Of a stretch of DNA of 53,978 bases, positions 1 through 37,532 are shown piece after piece. The notes beneath the pieces are model-generated. The model saw only the letters and a program-made list of their open reading frames with translations. It was not told the origin of the DNA and did no database searches. Made by a program: the position numbers and the translations under genes. Origin of the DNA: Anaerolineae bacterium (GTDB taxonomy: Bacteria; Chloroflexota; Anaerolineae; Aggregatilineales; Phototrophicaceae); NCBI GenBank assembly GCA_025454525.1, contig JALOOG010000041.1, positions 1 through 53,978 of the forward strand. The letters run 5' to 3'. The first letter of the stretch is position 1, and every line of letters starts with the position of its first letter.

Positions 1-2364
1 CGAAAGATCGGCACGCTGCTGTAAGATGCTATCCTCAGTGGCACCACTACCCCGAAATTCAAAGGCACATGATCCCGTCCGCGCAAAGGCCAGATCACAC
101 AAGCGGCGCTCACCACTGGCCCCACGAATGCCCCAAAAATCTGCAAGCCCGTCCACCGGATTCAGATCCTCCTCAAAACTCCGATTCCGCAATAATTCGA
201 TCGCGCCGGGAGCGGGGGTATCGGTCAGCGTGGGTGGGATCGGGGTTTCGGTCTCGGTCGGTGGGATGGGAGTCTCCGTTTCAGTGGGCGGGATCGGCGT
301 TTCAGTCTCGGTCGGTGGGATCGGCGTCTCCGTTTCAGTGGGCGGGATCGGAGTCGCGGTGGGGAGCGGTACGCCGTCAATGGTGATCGTCGCTGTGACC
401 AGTTGGCCGTCTGGATTGGTGATCGTGAGGGTGGAGGTGCCGGGTTCGGCCCCGCTTGCATCCACAGTGACGGTGATCGAGGTCGGGCTGTTGAACATAA
501 GGTTGCTGATGATCACGCCATTGGTTGCGGTAACAGTCAAGCGCCGACGACAATTGAGATCCGTCAGCGGCGAAGCGGGGGTATCGTAAAACCCTTCGCT
601 GTTGGGGGCGGTGCCGGTGATCGTGATTTGCGTCGGGGGTTGATTATTAAACACGGTCGCGATCGATCCACCAGGGACTATCGCGGGCGGAGGGGCATTT
701 AATCGGGCGACCTGTAACGCATACGAGTTCAACGCTTGATTGTATTGTTGGATCGTCCACAAGGTCATGTCATCACAGGGATCTAAGATCATCACCGAGT
801 AATCCCCCCAACGCCGGCCATCGGCGGTCGGAGTCTCACCGGACGGGTTATAATCGCTCACCCCGGCAGCATAGGTGGTCGGTGTGCGGAGCGTATTTGG
901 TGCATCTCCTACCCAACGTCCGGCATAACCCGCGCTGATTCGGGTATTATTTCCGGCCAAGCTAAAGCCTAAGGCGGCATGGCCTTGTCCATTGACCATG
1001 ATACTAGGCATCCAATAGTAGATCGCGGTTGAAGCTGGATTGCCGTTAACCAACTTGCCCGCTTGCATTTGCGTCAAGGTTTGCCCGCTGACCGATAACT
1101 CATACCACCGGATGCCTACCCGCCGGCCGGGGGTGGTCAATTGGGCAGTTGTGCCATCGCTATTCATGGTGATATTTTGGGCTGTCCACAAACGGCCGTT
1201 TCGCATGATCGCATCAAACAAGCGATCATCTAATGCGTCTAATTGGCCATTGGTGTCGCCTGTATTGCCTAAATGGGGGATATTGGCCGGAAAACTGGTT
1301 AATTCCACTGTAAGCGAGATATTCGGGGAGATCGTTGGGGTGGTGCTGCCGGGGTTGGTGATCGTCAACATGGTCAAGCGACCGAACACAATATCGCTCC
1401 CAATGAAATAGCCGAACGTGGCATTCGGATCGTAGTTATAGACCCCGCGCGGACTCCAGATCCCACTATCGCGATTATTGTCAAAGTTGGTATCGACGAT
1501 CAGATTACGAAACGCGGTGACAAACCCCGGGACGGCTAACAGATTCGACTCGATCGCTTGGGTTAAAAATGCCTTCCGGATCACAAAGACGGTGCTACGC
1601 TCATCTTCATCGCTACAAGCGACGTTCCCTCCGATGTATAACGCTTGCTGATCCATGCCTAGCGACGGGTAATCAAAGAAACAATCCGCATCGCCGGGGG
1701 TGGGAGCAAGATCCGCCTCATAGTAGTAAAATGTCCAGACGGTGGCCCCGGTGATCACCGATCCGTCGCTCACGGCCAATAAGACGCGGTTGTCGTCAAA
1801 GGTGGCCGGGTTGGTGAGATCGATATTGGCCGGTTGATCGATGATCGCGATAAACCAGCGGCGTGTATGCAGATCATAACGTACACGCGGATCGGTGACG
1901 CGAGTCGTCTCAATGGGCGCGGTTTGTACGTCATCAAAAAACGCATCGATCGTGGTGTCTAATGCACCGATTTGTCCGGTGTTTTTACTCATCACCCGGA
2001 TGCGACCGTTGACCGTAAGCAGTAGTTGGATCGGCCCCACCGCGCCCATTGTATCCGGCGGAAAACTTAAGGTATCGGATAAGGTGGCCGCTGTATACTG
2101 TACCCCGATCGTTTGCGGGGATTGTCCGGTGATCGGGGCGGCGGGTAAATTCAACGCCTCTGGAAGGGTGAGACGCGGGTCAAGATGACGATAACGCCCA
2201 TCACCAACCTCAGACTCTTGTTTAACCGACCATTCCGCTTGCGTTGCCTTCCGCATGATCTCATCGGTGGTGCGGCGAATCAGCGCGGACTCTGCTTGCA
2301 TGTGATCGATCGGCGTAACACTGAACAGGATGATCCACAGGATCAAGAATAAAAAGTATCGCAT
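1..2364 (-). CDS. Large secreted surface protein, truncated at the left window edge
   Basis: The reading frame is open from an ATG at 2364 to the window edge, giving 788 visible residues with the C-terminus missing. The N-terminus (MRYFLFLILWIILF) is a clear signal peptide. Residues about 35-555 form a region I cannot assign to a named family; it contains a PDTMGAVGP segment of a kind seen in large exported bacterial proteins. Residues about 560-660 look like an Ig/TIG-type beta domain (STLTITNPDGQL). A Pro/Thr/Glu linker of PIPPTET and PIPPTETET units follows at about 667-713. The last visible residues (ELLRNRSFEE onward) resemble the start of a carbohydrate-binding or galactose-binding-like domain. 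It lies 48 bp after the CDF transporter gene and may be co-transcribed. Surface adhesion or glycan binding is an inference only. Confidence 0.8.
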   Translation of the reverse strand, partial: MRYFLFLILWIILFSVTPIDHMQAESALIRRTTDEIMRKATQAEWSVKQESEVGDGRYRHLDPRLTLPEALNLPAAPITGQSPQTIGVQYTAATLSDTLSFPPDTMGAVGPIQLLLTVNGRIRVMSKNTGQIGALDTTIDAFFDDVQTAPIETTRVTDPRVRYDLHTRRWFIAIIDQPANIDLTNPATFDDNRVLLAVSDGSVITGATVWTFYYYEADLAPTPGDADCFFDYPSLGMDQQALYIGGNVACSDEDERSTVFVIRKAFLTQAIESNLLAVPGFVTAFRNLIVDTNFDNNRDSGIWSPRGVYNYDPNATFGYFIGSDIVFGRLTMLTITNPGSTTPTISPNISLTVELTSFPANIPHLGNTGDTNGQLDALDDRLFDAIMRNGRLWTAQNITMNSDGTTAQLTTPGRRVGIRWYELSVSGQTLTQMQAGKLVNGNPASTAIYYWMPSIMVNGQGHAALGFSLAGNNTRISAGYAGRWVGDAPNTLRTPTTYAAGVSDYNPSGETPTADGRRWGDYSVMILDPCDDMTLWTIQQYNQALNSYALQVARLNAPPPAIVPGGSIATVFNNQPPTQITITGTAPNSEGFYDTPASPLTDLNCRRRLTVTATNGVIISNLMFNSPTSITVTVDASGAEPGTSTLTITNPDGQLVTATITIDGVPLPTATPIPPTETETPIPPTETETPIPPTETETPIPPTETETPIPPTLTDTPAPGAIELLRNRSFEEDLNPVDGLADFWGIRGASGERRLCDLAFARTGSCAFEFRGSGATEDSILQQRADLS
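225..365 (-). repeat. Coding tandem repeat (PIPPTET/PIPPTETET linker)
   Basis: A 48-bp higher-order unit encodes a 7-residue and a 9-residue Pro/Thr/Glu block and is repeated about two to three times within the secreted protein gene. Such linkers usually space extracellular domains. The near-identity of the units suggests recent expansion or slippage. Confidence 0.8.
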
Positions 2365-12340: not shown

Positions 12341-13888
12341 ATGTTCCAATCAATCGCAAGTCGTGTCCCTCGCTTGATCGCCTTGGTGTTGATCGCAATG
12401 ATGACCCTGATCCCGTTGCAAGCGCAAGAATCGACTGGGGGGACGTTGCTGGTCGGCATGAACGCACCCGTCAATCTTGATCCCGCCAGTGGTTCAAATG
12501 ACCCAGAAGTGCTGTTTAATAACACGCTTTACGACACCTTATTGGACGTGCTGCCCGACGGCACGATCGTCGAAAATCTCGCAACCGCCTATACCATTAG
12601 CGAAGACGGACTCACCTATACCCTCACTTTGGCAGAAGGGGTGATGTTCCATGACGGCGCGGCGTTTAGCTCCGCGGATGTGCTGTTTACGTTTAATCGT
12701 TTGCAAGAACTCGAATCGGCGGCCTTAGGGTTGTTAAGCGGTGGAAATTTTGAAATTGCTGCACCCGACGCGCAAACAGTGGTGTTCACACTCACGGAAC
12801 CGAATGCCGATTTTCTGTATGGCTTGGCCGGACGTTTGACCTCGATCCTCAAAGACGGCACGACGGAACCGAATGTCGTGGTTGAAGGTGATACCCCCTA
12901 TCAGAACTTCAACGGCACAGGTGCATTTCGCTTGACCGATTACCGGGCCGGAGAGCGCGCTGTGTTTATCGCCAACGCCGATTACTTCCGCGAAGGTGAG
13001 CCGAAACTGGCCGGACTCGAATTTGTGTTTATTGAGGACGCACAAGCGCAAGTCGATGCGTTGATTACAGGCGAAGTCCATTTCATCTTCAAGTTGCCGA
13101 TCAACCAAGCGATCCAATTAGAGGCCCAAGACGGGATCACCCTGCTAGAACGCGCCACGAATCAACATGGCGTGATTCGAATCCGTTCAGATGAAGGTTT
13201 TATCGGGGCTGATCCACGCATCCGGCAAGCGTTCAAATTGGCAACCGATCGCGAAGAACTCAATTTGATCCTGCAAGAAGGACGGGCGGTGATCGGCAAT
13301 AATGACCCGATCGGCCCAGCTTTTGGCCTGTACTATGATGCGACGATCACCACGACCGATTATGACCCCGCGCAAGCGTGTGCCTTGATCCTTGAGGCCA
13401 CCGGACAAGAACGCATTAGCCTTGATTTTTACGTGGTGGATGCGTTGGGGTATCCGGATATGGCCACGGTGTTACGTCAACAATGGGCCGAAGGCTGTAT
13501 TGATGTGAACATCTTGGTGCGGCCGGAAAACGTCTACTATGGCAATAACGAATGGATGGAAGTCGAATTGGGCTTGACCGGATGGGGCGATCGCCCGATC
13601 CCACAACAATACTTGATCGAAGCCTACATCACGGGCGGGATCTACAACGAGTCGCATTGGTCAAACGAGGCTTTAGACGCATTGGTCGCTGAAGCAGGTC
13701 GTACCACTGATCCGACCGCCCGTGCGGAATTATACCGACAGATCGCGCAAATTTTCGCCACCGATGGCCCGATCATCGTGCCGTATTTCGCGCCGATTTT
13801 TGGGGCGGTTCGTAACGAGGTGCAAGGCCTAGAGATGGCCCCGTTCCCCGGCAATACCGATTTCCGTAACGTCATGTTGGGCAACTAG
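12341..13888 (+). CDS. ABC transporter substrate-binding protein, family 5 (peptide/opine type)
   Basis: A 515-aa protein with a signal peptide ending at PLQAQES, followed by the SBP_bac_5 architecture: SGGTLLVGM-like N-terminus, NLDPASGSNDPEVLFNNTLY, YTLTLAEGVMFHDG, GTGAFRLTDYRAGE, and a C-terminal GGIYNESHWSNEALDAL segment. Family 5 proteins bind oligopeptides, dipeptides, nickel or opines outside the membrane. GGAGG lies 4 nt from the ATG, rather close. The following gene is a DppC-type permease, separated by a 46-bp gap that contains a perfect 32-bp palindrome. No lipobox Cys is seen, so anchoring is unclear. Confidence 0.92.
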   Translation: MFQSIASRVPRLIALVLIAMMTLIPLQAQESTGGTLLVGMNAPVNLDPASGSNDPEVLFNNTLYDTLLDVLPDGTIVENLATAYTISEDGLTYTLTLAEGVMFHDGAAFSSADVLFTFNRLQELESAALGLLSGGNFEIAAPDAQTVVFTLTEPNADFLYGLAGRLTSILKDGTTEPNVVVEGDTPYQNFNGTGAFRLTDYRAGERAVFIANADYFREGEPKLAGLEFVFIEDAQAQVDALITGEVHFIFKLPINQAIQLEAQDGITLLERATNQHGVIRIRSDEGFIGADPRIRQAFKLATDREELNLILQEGRAVIGNNDPIGPAFGLYYDATITTTDYDPAQACALILEATGQERISLDFYVVDALGYPDMATVLRQQWAEGCIDVNILVRPENVYYGNNEWMEVELGLTGWGDRPIPQQYLIEAYITGGIYNESHWSNEALDALVAEAGRTTDPTARAELYRQIAQIFATDGPIIVPYFAPIFGAVRNEVQGLEMAPFPGNTDFRNVMLGN

Positions 13889-13900
13889 ACAGGGTAAAAC

Positions 13901-13932
13901 GATCTGCGTGGGGCCATGGCCCCACGCAGATC
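13901..13932. repeat. 32-bp perfect palindrome between binding protein and permease
   Basis: The half-site GATCTGCGTGGGGCCA is followed immediately by its exact reverse complement, with no spacer. In RNA it would form a very stable GC-rich hairpin between the two ABC genes. There is no T-run, so it is not a canonical Rho-independent terminator. It could stabilise the upstream message, attenuate read-through, or be a protein-binding site. Confidence 0.95.
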
Positions 13933-13934
13933 TC

Positions 13935-14804
13935 ATGAGGATGATAGTCAAACAAACTTTTGAGGTGTTACGACAATTGAGCGCCCGTCCGCTCTCGCTG
14001 ATCGGGATGCTGATTGTCCTGTTGTTCTTATTGATCGCGTTGCTGGGGCCCACCCTTGCGCCTTATCCGTATGATGAATTTGCACGCGATGCCGACGGCA
14101 TGGTGCAGCGGCGCGTCCCACCGTCTTTAGCGTTTCTCTTCGGCACCGATCAATTCGGCCGCGATGTTTTTAGTCGCGTCTTGTGGGGAGCGCGTGAGAT
14201 CATCGTGATTCCCGGCATTGCGACCACGATTGCAGTGATCTTAGGGACAAGTTTAGGGCTATTGATCGGCTATTTCGGCGGTTGGATCGATGAGTTGATC
14301 TCACGCGGCTTTGATAGTCTGTTAGCGATTCCGGCCTTGGTGTTAGCGTTGGTGGTATTGACCACGATCGGATCATCGGGTATCAGTGTGATCTTGGTGA
14401 TCGTGATCTTGTATACGCCGATCGTCACCCGCGTGATCCGGAGTGCAACGCTTAGCTTACGCACGGTTGGCTACGTTGAGGCGGCAAAGTTACGCGGTGA
14501 ATCGACAGCCTTTATCTTGTTTCGGGAGATCTTGCCGGGGGTCTTGCCCGCCTTGGTGGTAGAGGCGGCCTTACGCTTTTCGTATGCGATCTTCTTGACG
14601 GCCTCGTTAGGGTTTTTGGGACTCGGTGTGCAACCGCCTTCACCGGATTGGGGCTATATGGTCAATGAAGCCCGTGAGACCTTTTCACGCACGCCGTGGG
14701 CTTTGTGGTTTCCAGCGGGGGCGATCGCGTTGTTGGTGATCGGCGTGAATCTGTTGGCTGACGGGCTTCGGCGCATTTTCCGCTATGAAGGTTCGTTGAT
14801 TTAG
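13935..14804 (+). CDS. ABC transporter permease, DppC/OppC type
   Basis: About 289 aa from the ATG at 13935; a GTG at 13908 would lie inside the palindrome and add nine residues of palindrome-derived sequence. The N-terminal TM with a following LAPYPYDEF segment is the OppC_N pattern. The FGTDQFGRDVFSRVLWGAR segment and the EAAKLRGES EAA loop, which contacts the ATPase, are classic DppC/OppC motifs. Five or six TM segments are present. The partner DppB permease and both ATPases are absent nearby, so they must be encoded elsewhere if the transporter works. Confidence 0.92.
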   Translation: MRMIVKQTFEVLRQLSARPLSLIGMLIVLLFLLIALLGPTLAPYPYDEFARDADGMVQRRVPPSLAFLFGTDQFGRDVFSRVLWGAREIIVIPGIATTIAVILGTSLGLLIGYFGGWIDELISRGFDSLLAIPALVLALVVLTTIGSSGISVILVIVILYTPIVTRVIRSATLSLRTVGYVEAAKLRGESTAFILFREILPGVLPALVVEAALRFSYAIFLTASLGFLGLGVQPPSPDWGYMVNEARETFSRTPWALWFPAGAIALLVIGVNLLADGLRRIFRYEGSLI

Positions 14805-14924: not shown

Positions 14925-17474
14925 TTGGGTGTACAAAATTTATCGGGACGGGTGCTGGGACAATACGAATTGCGCGAATTATTGGGCGCAGGCGGCATGG
15001 GCGCGGTGTATTTGGCTTATCAACGCACCTTAGAGCGTCAAGTCGCAGTCAAGATCCTCAATGTCACACTGATCACCGATCCCGATTACGTCGCCCGCTT
15101 TTATCGAGAGGCCAAAACCTCCGCCGCCTTAGAACATCCCCATATCGTGCCGATCTACGATTACGCCACCCAAGACGGGATTAGTTACGTCGTGATGCGC
15201 CTCTTAACGGGCGGATCATTGGCCGAACGTCTGGCTTATAGCTTGAGTCATCAGCGTCCGCTGCCCGGTTTGACCGAGACGGCGGTGATCGTGCGGCAAT
15301 TAGCCAACGCCTTAGATTATGCCCATTCGCGCGGGGTGGTACATCGCGATGTGAAAACCAATAACGTCATGTTTGACGAACAAGGCACCTCGTTTCTGGT
15401 GGATTTTGGCATTGCGAAATTGATGCACGCCACCAGTGCCTTGACCGGAACGGGCATGACCGTCGGTACACCGTCCTACATGGCCCCGGAACAATGGCGC
15501 GGTGACGATGTGCAACCGTCCGCCGATCAATACTCGTTAGCGGTGCTGACCTATCACACCCTCACCGGGCGGATGCCATTTGAGGCCGAAACTCCTTACG
15601 CACTGATGCACAAACATCTGAATGAAGAGCCAACTCCGCTGACCGTCTTTCGCGCCGATCTGCCGGATGCCGTGCGCGGTGTCTTAAATCGCGCCCTCTC
15701 TAAAGACCCTAACCAACGCTATCCGACCGTAACCGCTTTTGCCGAAGCGTTTCAACAGGCGGCGCAAGGCAGTACCGAAGGGAGCGCCGCCTCACACTTT
15801 TTTGTCACGCCCCTTCCGAAGCGCAACTTGTTACCGGATTTACCGACAGTCAGCGATCAAGTGATCACCCCCGATCGTCCGGTAACGCCTTCACCACGAC
15901 AAGAGACCGAAATTGTCAAAGATCCCGCCGCACGCAACCGATTATCGCTGGGGTGGTTGTTGATCGGTGTGATCTTGGCGCTGTTGATCGGACTCGCCGG
16001 GTTATGGGTGTTTGATCCGTTAAATCTGATTCGCGAGAGTGGCACTTTGGTGGGATTACCACCCACCAACACGTTAGACAGCCGTTCCGCCGCGCAACGC
16101 ACCCGTGAGGCGATCTTCACTCAAACCGCGACTCAATGGACGATCACGCCGACTCCAGACGTTGATGCGACCCTCAACGCGGAGTTGACGGCCTTGTTTG
16201 CCTTAGATCTCACACAAACAGCCACACAATGGACATCGACTCCTACCGCCAGCCTAACGATCAGCCCGACTCCCACCGCGATTCCGTCAGAGACGGCGAC
16301 GTTAGATGTACGCAACGCCGCGCAAGCGACCCGCGCCGCTTTCTTGACGCTCACCGCCACTTTATGGACGGCCACACCGTCACCTGATGTCACCCGCATG
16401 ATCGGCGCGGAATTAACCGCGCTCTTTGAGCAGGATCTCACCATGACGGCCACACTCTGGACTCCGACTGCTACCCATACCGCTACCCCGACCGATCGCC
16501 CGACTCGTACCTCCACTTTTACCCGTACACCGACTTCCACGATCACCCCTAGCGCGACTCCTGAACCGTTGGCACAATGCCCGAACACCCGTCCGAATCG
16601 TTTGTATCCGGGGGGACAAGGCTTTGTGTTATCAGATGATACCCGTAGCGTTAACGTGCGTGCCGGGGCTGGGTTGGATAACCCGATCTTGGATCGCATC
16701 CCGATCAATACGCAATTTGTGGTGTTAGAAGGGCCGGAATGTAACGGGGATTTTGCGTGGTATCAGATCGAATACATGGGCGATCGTCAAGGATGGATCG
16801 CCGAAAGCGACAGCGAGATCTATTTTATTGCACCCTATCTCTTACACCCCGGAACCGGTGATACGCTGTTGACCACTTGCGCGATGTTACGCGGAGATGA
16901 TTTTGAGCTTGGCACTCAAAACGATTGGTTTTTCAATAGCACCGATACCTATGAGATCGCGGTGCGCGATGGCGCATATCTCATGCAGATCTATCCAAGG
17001 GCGGAGGGAAGTTCATTAGATCCGCAAGGGGAAGGGAATCCGGTGTTATGGGGCAGCTTACGCGAATTTGAATTTGAAAACGGGAGTGTAGAGGCGATCT
17101 TAAGCGCAGATCCGTTTAATGTGCGTTCAGGTACGATCACCGGACTATGGTTACGCTTCCAAGGGGATAATTACTACTTGGCCTTTATGTTACGCGGGGA
17201 TGGGCGCTATCGCATCGCACGTTATAGCGTCGAACAAGGGTATGAGGATCTGGTCGGATGGACGCGCAGTGCGGCAATCAATACGGGAGACGGTGCGTTT
17301 AACACCTTACGCATCGATCTTGATGGGCATCGCGCCGATGTCTTTGTGAATGGGGTCTACCTTGCCAGTCCGATCGATGATACTTGGGAGCGGGGACGCT
17401 TGGCCTTTTGGGGCGCTTCACGTCAAACCCCGGCCACATTTAGTTTAGATTATCTCCGTGTCTGTCGCTTATAA
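14925..17474 (+). CDS. Transmembrane Ser/Thr protein kinase with repeat and SH3b ectodomain
   Basis: 849 aa from a TTG start supported by AAAGGGG upstream. Residues about 14-275 are a Hanks-type kinase: GAGGMGAVY P-loop, K43 in VAVKIL, catalytic VHRDVKTNN (D142), DFG in VDFGIAK, and YMAPEQ. A juxtamembrane linker leads to one TM at about 340-363. Outside are two copies of a Thr/Ala-rich repeat (about 385-540, marked by TATQWT/TATLWT and AELTALF), an SH3b-like domain (about 551-636, VNVRAGAGLDNPILD), and a C-terminal concanavalin-like domain (about 640-849, FNTLRIDLDGHRADVFVNG). PASTA repeats are absent. Sensing of wall or glycan ligands is inferred. DUF5317 follows after 11 bp. Confidence 0.92.
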   Translation: MGVQNLSGRVLGQYELRELLGAGGMGAVYLAYQRTLERQVAVKILNVTLITDPDYVARFYREAKTSAALEHPHIVPIYDYATQDGISYVVMRLLTGGSLAERLAYSLSHQRPLPGLTETAVIVRQLANALDYAHSRGVVHRDVKTNNVMFDEQGTSFLVDFGIAKLMHATSALTGTGMTVGTPSYMAPEQWRGDDVQPSADQYSLAVLTYHTLTGRMPFEAETPYALMHKHLNEEPTPLTVFRADLPDAVRGVLNRALSKDPNQRYPTVTAFAEAFQQAAQGSTEGSAASHFFVTPLPKRNLLPDLPTVSDQVITPDRPVTPSPRQETEIVKDPAARNRLSLGWLLIGVILALLIGLAGLWVFDPLNLIRESGTLVGLPPTNTLDSRSAAQRTREAIFTQTATQWTITPTPDVDATLNAELTALFALDLTQTATQWTSTPTASLTISPTPTAIPSETATLDVRNAAQATRAAFLTLTATLWTATPSPDVTRMIGAELTALFEQDLTMTATLWTPTATHTATPTDRPTRTSTFTRTPTSTITPSATPEPLAQCPNTRPNRLYPGGQGFVLSDDTRSVNVRAGAGLDNPILDRIPINTQFVVLEGPECNGDFAWYQIEYMGDRQGWIAESDSEIYFIAPYLLHPGTGDTLLTTCAMLRGDDFELGTQNDWFFNSTDTYEIAVRDGAYLMQIYPRAEGSSLDPQGEGNPVLWGSLREFEFENGSVEAILSADPFNVRSGTITGLWLRFQGDNYYLAFMLRGDGRYRIARYSVEQGYEDLVGWTRSAAINTGDGAFNTLRIDLDGHRADVFVNGVYLASPIDDTWERGRLAFWGASRQTPATFSLDYLRVCRL

Positions 17475-17485
17475 CGGGATCTGAG

Positions 17486-18091
17486 ATGACGCTGTTTATC
17501 TTGTTTTTGATAATTGGCTTGGTGATCGGACTGCTCACCCGCGGCGATCTGCTCAAGTTAGGTGAATTGAAATTCAAACAACCCGGCCTCTTGATCCTAG
17601 CGTTGCTGATTCGTTTGCCGTTGCAGTTTTCACCGGAATTTAGTCAAGCGGTGGGTGGGGCGGTGGGCGGACTGTTACAAGTGATCGCGTTTAGCGCCGC
17701 GATCGCGTTTGCAATTGCTAATCGCGATCAACGGGGTATGTTCTTGATCGCGTTAGGTGCGTTGTTCAATATTTTGCCGATCGCCACCAATGGCGGTTAT
17801 ATGCCCGGGGATCGGGCGATGTACGCACAATTGTTGATCGCGGATGGTCAACTGGAGCGCGCTGAATGGGTCGATAGCGCCGATATTTTGCTTCATACTC
17901 GTCGGATCACCCCAGAAACGCATTTTTGGTTTTTATCTGATGTGATCCCCGTGCCGCGTTTGATCTTCACCCGTCCCTACATGATTAGCCCCGGAGATGT
18001 GTGTATGGCTTTGGGGATCATGGTTCTGGTGATCGCGACCATGCACCGCCGACCTACGTTAAGGCTCAGTTTAGAGGATATTAAGGCTTAA
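17486..18091 (+). CDS. DUF5317 family membrane protein
   Basis: A 201-aa hydrophobic protein with about five TM segments. It matches my recollection of DUF5317: N-terminal GLLTRGDLLKLGEL, a central ATNGGYMPGDRAMY segment, then FLSDVIPVPR and a final YMISPGDVCMALGI helix. No function is known for the family. It lies 11 bp after the kinase stop, so the two are probably co-transcribed. Confidence 0.8.
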   Translation: MTLFILFLIIGLVIGLLTRGDLLKLGELKFKQPGLLILALLIRLPLQFSPEFSQAVGGAVGGLLQVIAFSAAIAFAIANRDQRGMFLIALGALFNILPIATNGGYMPGDRAMYAQLLIADGQLERAEWVDSADILLHTRRITPETHFWFLSDVIPVPRLIFTRPYMISPGDVCMALGIMVLVIATMHRRPTLRLSLEDIKA

Positions 18092-18170: not shown

Positions 18171-18198
18171 TTGACTTTGGTTTGAATTGAGTTAGAAT
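18171..18198 (+). promoter_or_regulatory. Promoter of the 29-aa peptide gene
   Basis: TTGACT at 18171-18176, a 16-bp spacer and TAGAAT at 18193-18198. One of the clearest promoters in the window. Transcription would start near 18205, about 50 nt before the ATG. Confidence 0.7.
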
Positions 18199-18256
18199 AG
18201 GGTTTAGATAAAGCAATCACGTTTACACAATCACAATGAATTAAGGAGTACACATC

Positions 18257-18346
18257 ATGAAATCACGTTTGATTAACGTTGTTCTCGGATTAGCCGCTTT
18301 AGTCGCGATTATGGTTGCGATGGGCGCTCCTTCGATGAATTGGTAA
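18257..18346 (+). CDS. Small hydrophobic peptide (29 aa), unrecognised
   Basis: ATG at 18257 to TAA at 18344-18346, with an ideal AAGGAG 8 nt upstream (18243-18248). The peptide begins MKSRLINVVLG, has a single hydrophobic helix (LAALVAIMVAM) and ends GAPSMNW. It has its own promoter and is followed at 18 nt by a Rho-independent terminator, giving a ~200-nt transcript. The next gene is on the opposite strand, so it is not a leader peptide for a downstream gene. It could be a small membrane protein, a secreted peptide with a short tail, or an RNA that happens to carry a translated ORF. I recognise no family. Confidence 0.65.
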   Translation: MKSRLINVVLGLAALVAIMVAMGAPSMNW

Positions 18347-18363
18347 TTTCACACGCTTCTGCT

Positions 18364-18402
18364 CCCCATGAAACCGCTGTTTATGGGGGCGTTGCTTTTT
18401 TT
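18364..18402 (+). terminator. Rho-independent terminator of the small-peptide unit
   Basis: CCCCAT and AAAC pair with GTTT and ATGGGG around a short loop (18364-18388). A T7 run at 18396-18402 follows. Confidence 0.8.
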
Positions 18403-18420: not shown

Positions 18421-18478
18421 AGCTTTTCAAAAAAATAGCCTGTCCATCCTCGTTTTAGAAGATGGGCAGTTTTTTTTA
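18421..18478. terminator. Bidirectional terminator between the small peptide and GT2 genes
   Basis: CTGTCCATC and GATGGGCAG form a 9-bp stem with one G-U pair. A T8 run follows on the plus strand and an A-run precedes it, which acts as a T-run for the minus strand. It lies just after the stop of the minus-strand GT2 gene. Confidence 0.75.
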
Positions 18479-18483
18479 TGCCT

Positions 18484-19191
18484 TTAGCGTAGATGCTCTT
18501 TACGAATCACCAATTCCCCCCATAATCGTAACAGATCTGTCCCGGTGCGAAAGATGCGACCAAAGCGGAAAAATTGAGACCGTCCATGCACCCGATGATG
18601 ATGTGAGACCGGGGCCTGCACGATCTTAAACCCGTGATCTTGGATCTTTTTCATCATCTCCACACAGATCACCCCGCTATTGCGAGTCAACTTGACCTTA
18701 TCGAACACGCGGCGATGGATAATCCGAAAATCGCAATCGACATCGCGCACCTTGAGTCCAAACATCCGACTGACCACCTGATGATAGATCCCGCCGATCA
18801 AGATCCGATACCACGGATCGCTCCGTTGGGTTTTGTAACCTTGCGCCATATCGATTCCGGGCGCGATCAACGGGTACAAATTGCGGAGATCGCGCACATC
18901 GTATTGTGCATCCCCGTCGGTATAGAAGATCCATTCTTTGGTCGCACTCTCAAACCCGGTGCGTAACGCCCCTCCGTAGCCGCGATTCTGGACGTGATGC
19001 ACCACGCGCACGCGGGGGTAATCGGCGGCGAGGCGATCCAAAATTTGCGGCGTAAAATCTTGGCTGCCGTCGTTGATCACGATGATCTCATAATCGTCGG
19101 TGAGTTCTTCGGCAATCAACATGGCGGAAACGATCATACTGGCGATCGTCCCCATATCGTTATAAGCTGGAAAAAAGATCGAAAGTCCCAT
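18484..19191 (-). CDS. Glycosyltransferase family 2 (polyprenyl-phosphate sugar transferase-like)
   Basis: A 235-aa GT-A enzyme resembling dolichyl/polyprenyl-phosphate mannosyl- or glucosyltransferases. The N-terminus SIFFPAYNDMGTIA and VINDGSQD bind nucleotide-sugar, YTDGDAQYD carries the DxD-type metal site, and DVDCDFRIIHR is typical of the DPM1-like subgroup. No TM segment is evident. It is last in a three-gene operon with the methyltransferase (5-bp gap) and the LPG-synthase-type membrane protein. It likely charges a lipid carrier with a sugar. Confidence 0.9.
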   Translation of the reverse strand: MGLSIFFPAYNDMGTIASMIVSAMLIAEELTDDYEIIVINDGSQDFTPQILDRLAADYPRVRVVHHVQNRGYGGALRTGFESATKEWIFYTDGDAQYDVRDLRNLYPLIAPGIDMAQGYKTQRSDPWYRILIGGIYHQVVSRMFGLKVRDVDCDFRIIHRRVFDKVKLTRNSGVICVEMMKKIQDHGFKIVQAPVSHHHRVHGRSQFFRFGRIFRTGTDLLRLWGELVIRKEHLR

Positions 19192-36614: not shown

Positions 36615-37532
36615 ATGTATTCCGCTCTGTATGTCCAACACCTGCTACAAGGCCCCTTTCCCCAACGGACTGATCCATGGGGTGAGGATGATCATTACTT
36701 CCAACAGTTACACAGTGGCTTGATCGCGGCCTTGGTTCAGCAGTTGATGGAATTGATGTTGCGCGGTTATGTGATCGGCACGAGTTTTGACCCCCACCCT
36801 AACCCTCCCCCATACATGGGGGAGGGGACTGGCCCGCGTGGCATGGACTCCCCGAATACGGGGGAGGGGACTGGCCCGCGTGGCACGGACTCGCCGAACA
36901 TGGGGGAGGGGATCGGCCCGCGTGGCATGGACTCCCCGAACATAGGGGAGGGGATCGGCCCGCGTGGTGTAGCAGAGAGCGCGAGATTAGGGGCGATCAC
37001 GGCAACGACTCCGCTTGAGGCCTTATGGATTCGCGATGGACAAACGGGGGATTTGATCACGATTATCGAGATCCTATCTCCGGGAAATAAAACCTTGCGA
37101 GGGATCAGCGATTACGCCGATGACCGTCACGAATATCTGTTAAGCGGGGTGAACTTTGTGGAGATCGATCTCACGCGCTCCATACGACGCGCCACAGATC
37201 ACGATCTCACCCGTCTTTATGCTTATCATCTGGCGGTGTATTTGCCACATGATGGGTTACGGATCATCGGGATGGCGTTTGATCAACCGCTCAAACGTTT
37301 TGCCCTACCCTTAAAAGGGGAGGTGATCGGGGTCGATCTCGCGTTGGCATATCAAGAAGCATATCAAAAACGCCAGATTGCGGCGCAAATGGTCTTAGAT
37401 CACCATTACACCTTAGCGCGGTTGCCATTTCCGACCCTAATCAGTAGCACCGAAACCCAAGCCTTGATCGAACAGGTCAACGCTTGGGTCGATCAGCTTG
37501 AGGTCTTAAAAAATCAGAGCGGATCGCTGTAA
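36615..37532 (+). CDS. DUF4058 family protein with an in-frame repeat insertion
   Basis: 305 aa. The N-terminus (DPWGEDDHYFQQLHSGLIAALVQQL) and the core (TIIEILSPGNKTLRG, then FVEIDLTRSIRR) identify DUF4058, a family of unknown function frequent in cyanobacteria, Planctomycetes and Chloroflexota. Between them, residues about 57-118 are encoded by 42-bp tandem repeats giving GEGTGPRGMDSPN units, where other members, as I recall them, have a conserved segment with a PDV-type motif. The insertion starts with a copy of the dispersed CCCCATACATGGGG repeat. Whether the protein still folds is uncertain. It lies between the methyltransferase (8-bp gap) and the biotin carboxylase gene (44-bp gap). Confidence 0.85.
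   Translation: MYSALYVQHLLQGPFPQRTDPWGEDDHYFQQLHSGLIAALVQQLMELMLRGYVIGTSFDPHPNPPPYMGEGTGPRGMDSPNTGEGTGPRGTDSPNMGEGIGPRGMDSPNIGEGIGPRGVAESARLGAITATTPLEALWIRDGQTGDLITIIEILSPGNKTLRGISDYADDRHEYLLSGVNFVEIDLTRSIRRATDHDLTRLYAYHLAVYLPHDGLRIIGMAFDQPLKRFALPLKGEVIGVDLALAYQEAYQKRQIAAQMVLDHHYTLARLPFPTLISSTETQALIEQVNAWVDQLEVLKNQSGSL
36790..36969 (+). repeat. Tandem 42-bp repeats derived from the dispersed palindromic repeat
   Basis: After a leader of CCCCCACCCTAACCCTCCCC come three full 42-bp units (36815-36856, 36857-36898, 36899-36940) and a partial fourth. Each contains GGGGGAGGGGA, GGCCCGCGTGG and GGACTCCCCGAA or close variants. The unit length is a multiple of three, so the DUF4058 frame is kept. Confidence 0.9.

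Follow-up and report, generated by a model that had tools for sequence, protein, structure and literature searches.

The question raised by this locus is whether a 29-codon open reading frame at positions 18257-18346 (plus strand) of the window, by which we mean the whole 53,978-nucleotide stretch analyzed, is a gene, and if so what its product, MKSRLINVVLGLAALVAIMVAMGAPSMNW, does. A sequence-only reading had described it as a stand-alone transcription unit for a hydrophobic peptide too short for most gene-calling cut-offs, and the elements it listed are all present: a promoter-like site at 18171-18198 (TTGACT at 18171-18176, a 16-bp spacer and TAGAAT at 18193-18198, together matching 10 of 12 consensus positions), a Shine-Dalgarno AAGGAG at 18243-18248, 8 nt 5′ of the ATG at 18257, and an intrinsic terminator at 18363-18402, composed of a hairpin (18363-18389) and a run of seven T (18396-18402), all on the plus strand. 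Promoter-like sites in the region are no more frequent than in shuffled sequence (3 vs. 2.3 ± 1.6), nor are terminator-like sites (2 vs. 1.6 ± 1.2), so these consensus matches on their own prove little. The hairpin is nevertheless stabler than its shuffles, with a folding energy of −17.3 kcal/mol (z = −3.15). A second hairpin at 18430-18480, flanked by T runs on both sides (z = −4.85 on the plus strand and −3.49 on the minus strand), is likely a bidirectional terminator, and probably ends both the peptide unit and the next gene, a convergent glycosyltransferase (18484-19191, minus strand). With no gene to be regulated following on its strand, the locus is not an attenuator leader, as had been concluded before. 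The “stand-alone” description is no more than a possibility: we looked for a terminator-like site between the upstream gene (end at 18091) and the peptide gene and found none, so read-through from upstream is possible.

That upstream gene was overlooked in the earlier reading, as was the link of the peptide to a family found in several phyla. At 17486-18091 on the same strand lies the gene for a 201-aa membrane protein of the DUF5317 family (Pfam PF17248; E = 7.5e-27; 94.6 bits vs. a cut-off of 25), which keeps all the invariant residues (G91, N95, G104, M106, P107, D152, G170, and D171), is predicted with high confidence by AF2 (pLDDT 93.7), and is the only DUF5317 copy in the genome. The peptide ORF starts 166 nt downstream of it. 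A Ser/Thr protein kinase gene with an SH3b domain (14925-17474, plus strand) ends 12 nt 5′ of the DUF5317 gene; it is the nearest signaling gene to the pair, and the spacing suggests that the kinase and DUF5317 may share an operon. PADLOC matches to this kinase reflect a kinase domain of a common type. The glycosyltransferase gene was uninformative as a synteny marker, being nearly genome-specific.

Several other features of the window were recorded. Upstream of the kinase, at 12341-14804, a solute-binding protein of the oligopeptide type is encoded together with one OppC-type permease. Neither an OppB nor an ATPase gene adjoins the pair, which could serve peptide uptake or represent an incomplete transporter. 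A large, secreted-looking protein encoded at 1-2364 (minus strand) contains Thr/Pro-rich tandem repeats (ETPIPPTET), and the kinase has low-complexity stretches similar to these. Near its own middle, the ORF at 36615-37532 carries in-frame repeats (GEG.GPRG.DSPN), perhaps an inserted repeat.

DUF5317 is patchily distributed, occurring in 3 of 151 genomes among relatives of the window's genome (its own included) and in 119 of 400 genomes of the phylum. We searched 98 Chloroflexota DUF5317 neighborhoods plus the window (99 loci, spanning more than a dozen taxonomic families) for Shine-Dalgarno-led ORFs of 20–62 aa encoding a hydrophobic core and, 4–19 residues before the end, a G-A motif. Such ORFs numbered 45 at ≤1.8 kb from DUF5317, spread over 43 of the 99 loci and every one on the strand of DUF5317; 322 kb of more distant sequence held 13. 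A contig scan using the window's DUF5317 sequence as sole query gave no match, and a five-sequence DUF5317 alignment as query yielded 79 named loci. In these, 66 of 66 nearby matches (again ≤1.8 kb) lie on the DUF5317 strand, compared to two far-away matches in 403 kb. Taken together, 111 of 111 nearby matches share the strand of DUF5317, a sum in which some loci are counted twice and for which we give no p-value, as the two sets overlap and related loci are non-independent. Most signaling-type DUF5317 loci carry an ORF of this kind.

The family ORFs encode 24–52 aa, with a basic start, about 15 hydrophobic residues, a [small]-x-G-A motif, and a tail of 5–10 residues that often ends in W or F. 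Examples are MKTYAVRLVVAGGALLATLLASGAPIHWWGP (L097), whose gene follows that of DUF5317 just as the window's does, MREVYWQVGYLLLVLVALVLASGAPNDWPGP (L095), MKTKLNLIAASLSSLNRQHIQLFFVLLTLTMLVLGAGAPEDGGGVGR (L041), and MRKWTLLRWLLAVAAIVVAGGAPTKWA from a contig titled Actinobacteria (L267). Variants were also found in contigs titled Spirochaetaceae, Clostridiales, Eubacteriales, Bipolaricaulota, Fraserbacteria, and Desulfovibrio, all metagenome bins whose titles may be wrong for single contigs. Peptide genes can occur in tandem, with up to five copies in one locus. Five tandem matches were seen in L237 (4305-4870) and three each in L226 and L066; the four L237 copies that were aligned encode identical or near-identical peptides with mostly silent differences.

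Does the window ORF belong to this family, or does it resemble it by chance, unexpressed, with DUF5317 the only real gene of the pair? Its product reads MKSR, LINVVLGLAALVAIMV, A-M-G-A, and PSMNW, which is the build by which the family is defined (basic N-terminus, core free of acidic residues, [small]-x-G-A, and a short tail often with W or F). On both strands of the whole 54-kb window, it is the sole match to the family rule (a Shine-Dalgarno-led ORF of 20–62 aa with hydrophobic core, GA, and short tail), which was learned mainly from other genomes and returns 0.1 matches on average in simulated windows, both strands included. It also has a strong Shine-Dalgarno sequence, lies on the right strand less than 170 nt from the genome's only DUF5317 gene, well within the 1.8 kb used for the family, and is found by the family profile at E = 8.6e-8, a value to be read with the window peptide itself being part of the alignment. 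In favor of chance, the exact peptide has no close homolog, and the locus is absent from nearly all relatives, so selection on the window copy is not measurable. Identity to other family members is low (17–41%), and neither the peptide as a single-sequence query nor 271 bases of window DNA recovered a homolog in 40 relatives. We attribute these failures mostly to limited sensitivity, not to absence of the family; the tBLASTn search that had been proposed as a test is misleading for the same reason, since a single peptide query matches nothing though the family exists. With the profile, 60 relatives of the window's genome gave no convincing match, and since DUF5317 is itself present in only 3 of 151 relatives, the two are absent together, which counts in favor of a partnership. 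We therefore consider a chance ORF very improbable; the build and position of the sequence make a strong case for a real gene and for its membership in a family of short hydrophobic peptides that is unannotated and distributed over several phyla.

The dN/dS-type comparison suggested earlier was run on the family, as the window copy has no close relative. The 25 closest Anaerolineales pairs have a pN of 0.14–0.29 vs. a pS of 0.42–0.86; for the eleven Anaerolineales peptides, the medians are 0.30 and 0.71, and over all pairs the changes at codon positions 1, 2, and 3 number 939, 588, and 1462. Among the 16 close pairs compared in Bacillota, 15 have the smaller value for pN. With pN < pS in nearly all pairs, the peptide family is coding. 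This bears directly on whether the locus is instead a regulatory small RNA or a leader peptide, its ORF incidental or translated for control only. The short transcription unit, complete with terminator, would suit such a role; the convergent orientation of the next gene, together with the protein-level selection and frame conservation seen in relatives, makes it the least probable reading of all those we weighed. The abundant small RNA raised in the sequence-only reading likewise lacks support, as there is no Rfam match near threshold and the protein is what relatives conserve. The two other possibilities it named, a small membrane regulator and a secreted peptide signal, are the two leading readings here.

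Genomic context gives clues to function. Of the 36 Chloroflexota proteins scanned that are encoded 5′ of DUF5317, 19 are HD-GYP proteins and eight are TPR-BTAD, MalT-like regulators. In Anaerolineales, the 3′ side holds Os1348-like proteins (matching NF038399 below cut-off) and a PAS-GAF-HD-GYP protein; proteins of about 90–120 aa following DUF5317 in L060-L067 and L091 (Anaerolineales and others) resemble Os1348/NHLP-clan RiPP-like proteins, also below the curated cut-off. DUF5317 is fused to an MFS permease (MFS_3) in four loci (L103, L116, L140, and L156), a permease that could export the peptide, and to PAS-GAF-GGDEF in another (L239); in the Actinobacteria-titled contig (L267), the peptide gene is followed by one for a SpoIIE phosphatase. 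In a separate setting, DUF5317 has an M20 peptidase on one side, an FtsH-like protein on the other, and no peptide (L107, L111, L113, L121-L123, L128, and L133). By the strict or relaxed rule, a peptide is present at 104 of 126 loci with HD-GYP or TPR-BTAD neighbors vs. 0 of 15 with FtsH/M20 neighbors (Fisher p = 1.5e-10, with loci treated as independent), so the peptide goes with DUF5317 in signaling settings and not with DUF5317 as such. In the window, the upstream Ser/Thr kinase is a candidate for such a signaling neighbor.

Bacillota provide a second phylum. DUF5317 scores above cut-off in 90 of 299 genomes of this phylum, represented by a contig titled Bacillota (L262), and we examined 60 of the loci. 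An HD-GYP gene accompanies DUF5317 on the same strand in 57 of them, and a peptide of 24–33 aa, e.g., MKKATIIKVLLALLALALAGGANLTWG, is encoded in 50, usually just 5′ of the HD-GYP gene. The rule was loosened after the Bacillota peptides had been seen (a stricter one, allowing no K or R in the 15-residue core, retains only five near an HD-GYP gene), which makes 50 of 60 a replication, not a blind test; the stronger figure is the strand ratio, 50 matches on the same strand vs. one on the opposite. In 48 of the 60 loci, a fourth gene, of about 210 aa, precedes the peptide gene in the same orientation (L273-L332; e.g., L330:4851-5495, minus strand) and may be part of the same module; its homolog in L255 has no Pfam match.

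The build of the peptides and a model of DUF5317 suggest how the two might work together. Across 77 family peptides, aligned in a register that was chosen automatically and misplaces a few, position P3 is a small residue in 74–76, P1 is G in all 77, and P1′ is A in 71; the mean net charge before the core is +2.8 and the median hydrophobic run is 15. The [small]-x-G-A motif with a core of about 15 residues fits cleavage by signal peptidase I to a peptide of 5–10 residues, which in the window would be APSMNW (codons at 18326-18343, plus strand) if the cut falls after G23 (A21-M22-G23|A24). For DUF5317, the positive charges in loops 1 and 3 predict, by the positive-inside rule, that residues 102–168 are outside; invariant G104, M106, P107, and D152 fall within this stretch, and N95, G170, and D171 at the ends of the helices next to it. 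A fold search of the PDB with the AF2 model returned generic helical bundles at best (Foldseek E = 2.6 or Z = 7.1), which does not allow the fold to be named.

Our main reading, to which we assign a probability of roughly 55%, is that the peptide is a signal-peptide-like precursor and the dedicated partner, or ligand source, of the adjoining DUF5317 membrane protein. The basic start would hold its N-terminus inside while the core of about 15 residues enters the membrane, leaving the tail outside (N-in/C-out) on the same face as the invariant DUF5317 residues (NGGxMP, LxD, and SxGD; predicted outside). Signal peptidase I would probably cut at [A/G/S/T]-x-G-A, and DUF5317 would sense the tail, freed or tethered, and relay the signal, elsewhere to an HD-GYP phosphodiesterase, diguanylate cyclase, TPR-BTAD regulator, or SpoIIE phosphatase, and in the window's genome perhaps to the upstream Ser/Thr kinase. 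A role of DUF5317 as input domain is suggested by its fusions to PAS-GAF-GGDEF and MFS and by its HD-GYP neighbors in Bacillota. The ligand role and the tail cleavage are putative, as is the kinase as output in this genome. Counting against the ligand model, the usual HD-GYP partner is missing (the window's genome has no HD-GYP [HD_5] or MASE9 match), so that linking the kinase is guesswork, and identity within the family is low. The invariant G-A could also be a helix-packing motif instead of a cleavage site, and the tail varies rather little between phyla (K/R or N before W/F), unlike those of fast-evolving, strain-specific pheromones.

These last points fit a different role, that of a small single-pass protein akin to MgrB, AcrZ, or KdpF: the peptide would remain membrane-bound, never released, and serve DUF5317 or the HD-GYP protein as a regulatory or assembly subunit. 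One hydrophobic segment with a conserved small-residue G-A motif, the constant genetic linkage to membrane proteins, and a tail that varies rather little between phyla, with K/R preceding W/F, all speak for such a subunit. On the other side, a core of median 15 residues is short for a helix that spans the membrane stably, the [small]-x-G-A motif suits signal peptidase I, and tandem copies better suit a secreted signal than a subunit in 1:1 ratio; we consider retention in the membrane unlikely, though it is the most serious competitor to the ligand model. Far less probable is a toxic peptide, either a type I toxin or a small bacteriocin, with DUF5317 as its immunity protein. A 29-aa product with one hydrophobic helix, its own promoter-like site and a terminator does resemble type I toxins, and tandem copies exist; yet no Rfam match suggests a known antitoxin RNA, PADLOC has no match for the peptide or DUF5317, DUF5317 is fused to signaling and transport domains, and the linkage to HD-GYP and TPR-BTAD regulators would be left unexplained.

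Most known peptide signaling is from Bacillota and uses TPR or histidine-kinase receptors. If the ligand model is true, DUF5317 gains a function, where its Pfam entry (PF17248) gives none, and membrane HD-GYP enzymes gain a candidate ligand; genes of fewer than 30 codons would then hide conserved parts of signaling, here unannotated peptides that across many phyla are linked with a single membrane protein and with c-di-GMP turnover. More tentatively, at somewhat less than even odds, this may be an undescribed and widespread mode of peptide signaling in Chloroflexota, Bacillota, and several other phyla, with a peptide of 5–10 residues, cut from a tiny, unannotated precursor, sensed by DUF5317 at the outer membrane face and controlling c-di-GMP enzymes, transcription factors, or protein kinases. 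Literature searches, with most subscription papers outside their scope, found no description of DUF5317, PF17248, or an associated peptide, nor of MASE9 with HD-GYP or of Chloroflexota peptide pheromones.

Among known systems, small membrane proteins of the MgrB, AcrZ, and KdpF type have about 30–50 aa, one hydrophobic helix, and a larger membrane protein as partner. The peptide family is like them in size, helix, and partner, and differs in its signal-peptide-like core, [small]-x-G-A motif, tandem gene copies, and linkage to DUF5317 in several phyla. MASE9-HD-GYP c-di-GMP phosphodiesterases are related through context: HD-GYP genes, some with a MASE9 match, are the usual neighbors in Bacillota and many Chloroflexota, and have no match in the window's genome. 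Thermotoga maritima, which has both DUF5317 and MASE9, has been reported to use a peptide signal (PMC6022435).

The closest architecture is that of RRNPP propeptides, which are small, with a basic start, a hydrophobic middle, and the signal at the C-terminus (PMC10075063), a definition the window peptide matches. As in RRNPP/SHP precursors (Rap-Phr, Rgg-SHP, and PlcR-PapR), the last 4–10 residues are likely the signal and the gene lies beside that of the putative receptor (PMC10075063); some Chloroflexota loci also adjoin a TPR-containing BTAD regulator. The constant partner, however, is the DUF5317 membrane protein, usually with HD-GYP, and not a TPR receptor of 250–500 aa; the family's TPR-BTAD neighbors have about 1000 aa, and the window copy adjoins no TPR gene, its neighbors being DUF5317, the Ser/Thr kinase, and the glycosyltransferase. 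Rap-Phr systems show tandem duplication of pheromone sequences within the propeptide (PMC11343458), a different kind of repeat from the tandem peptide genes described here. With the architecture but no TPR receptor, the peptide may act in a pheromone-like way without being a member of RRNPP.
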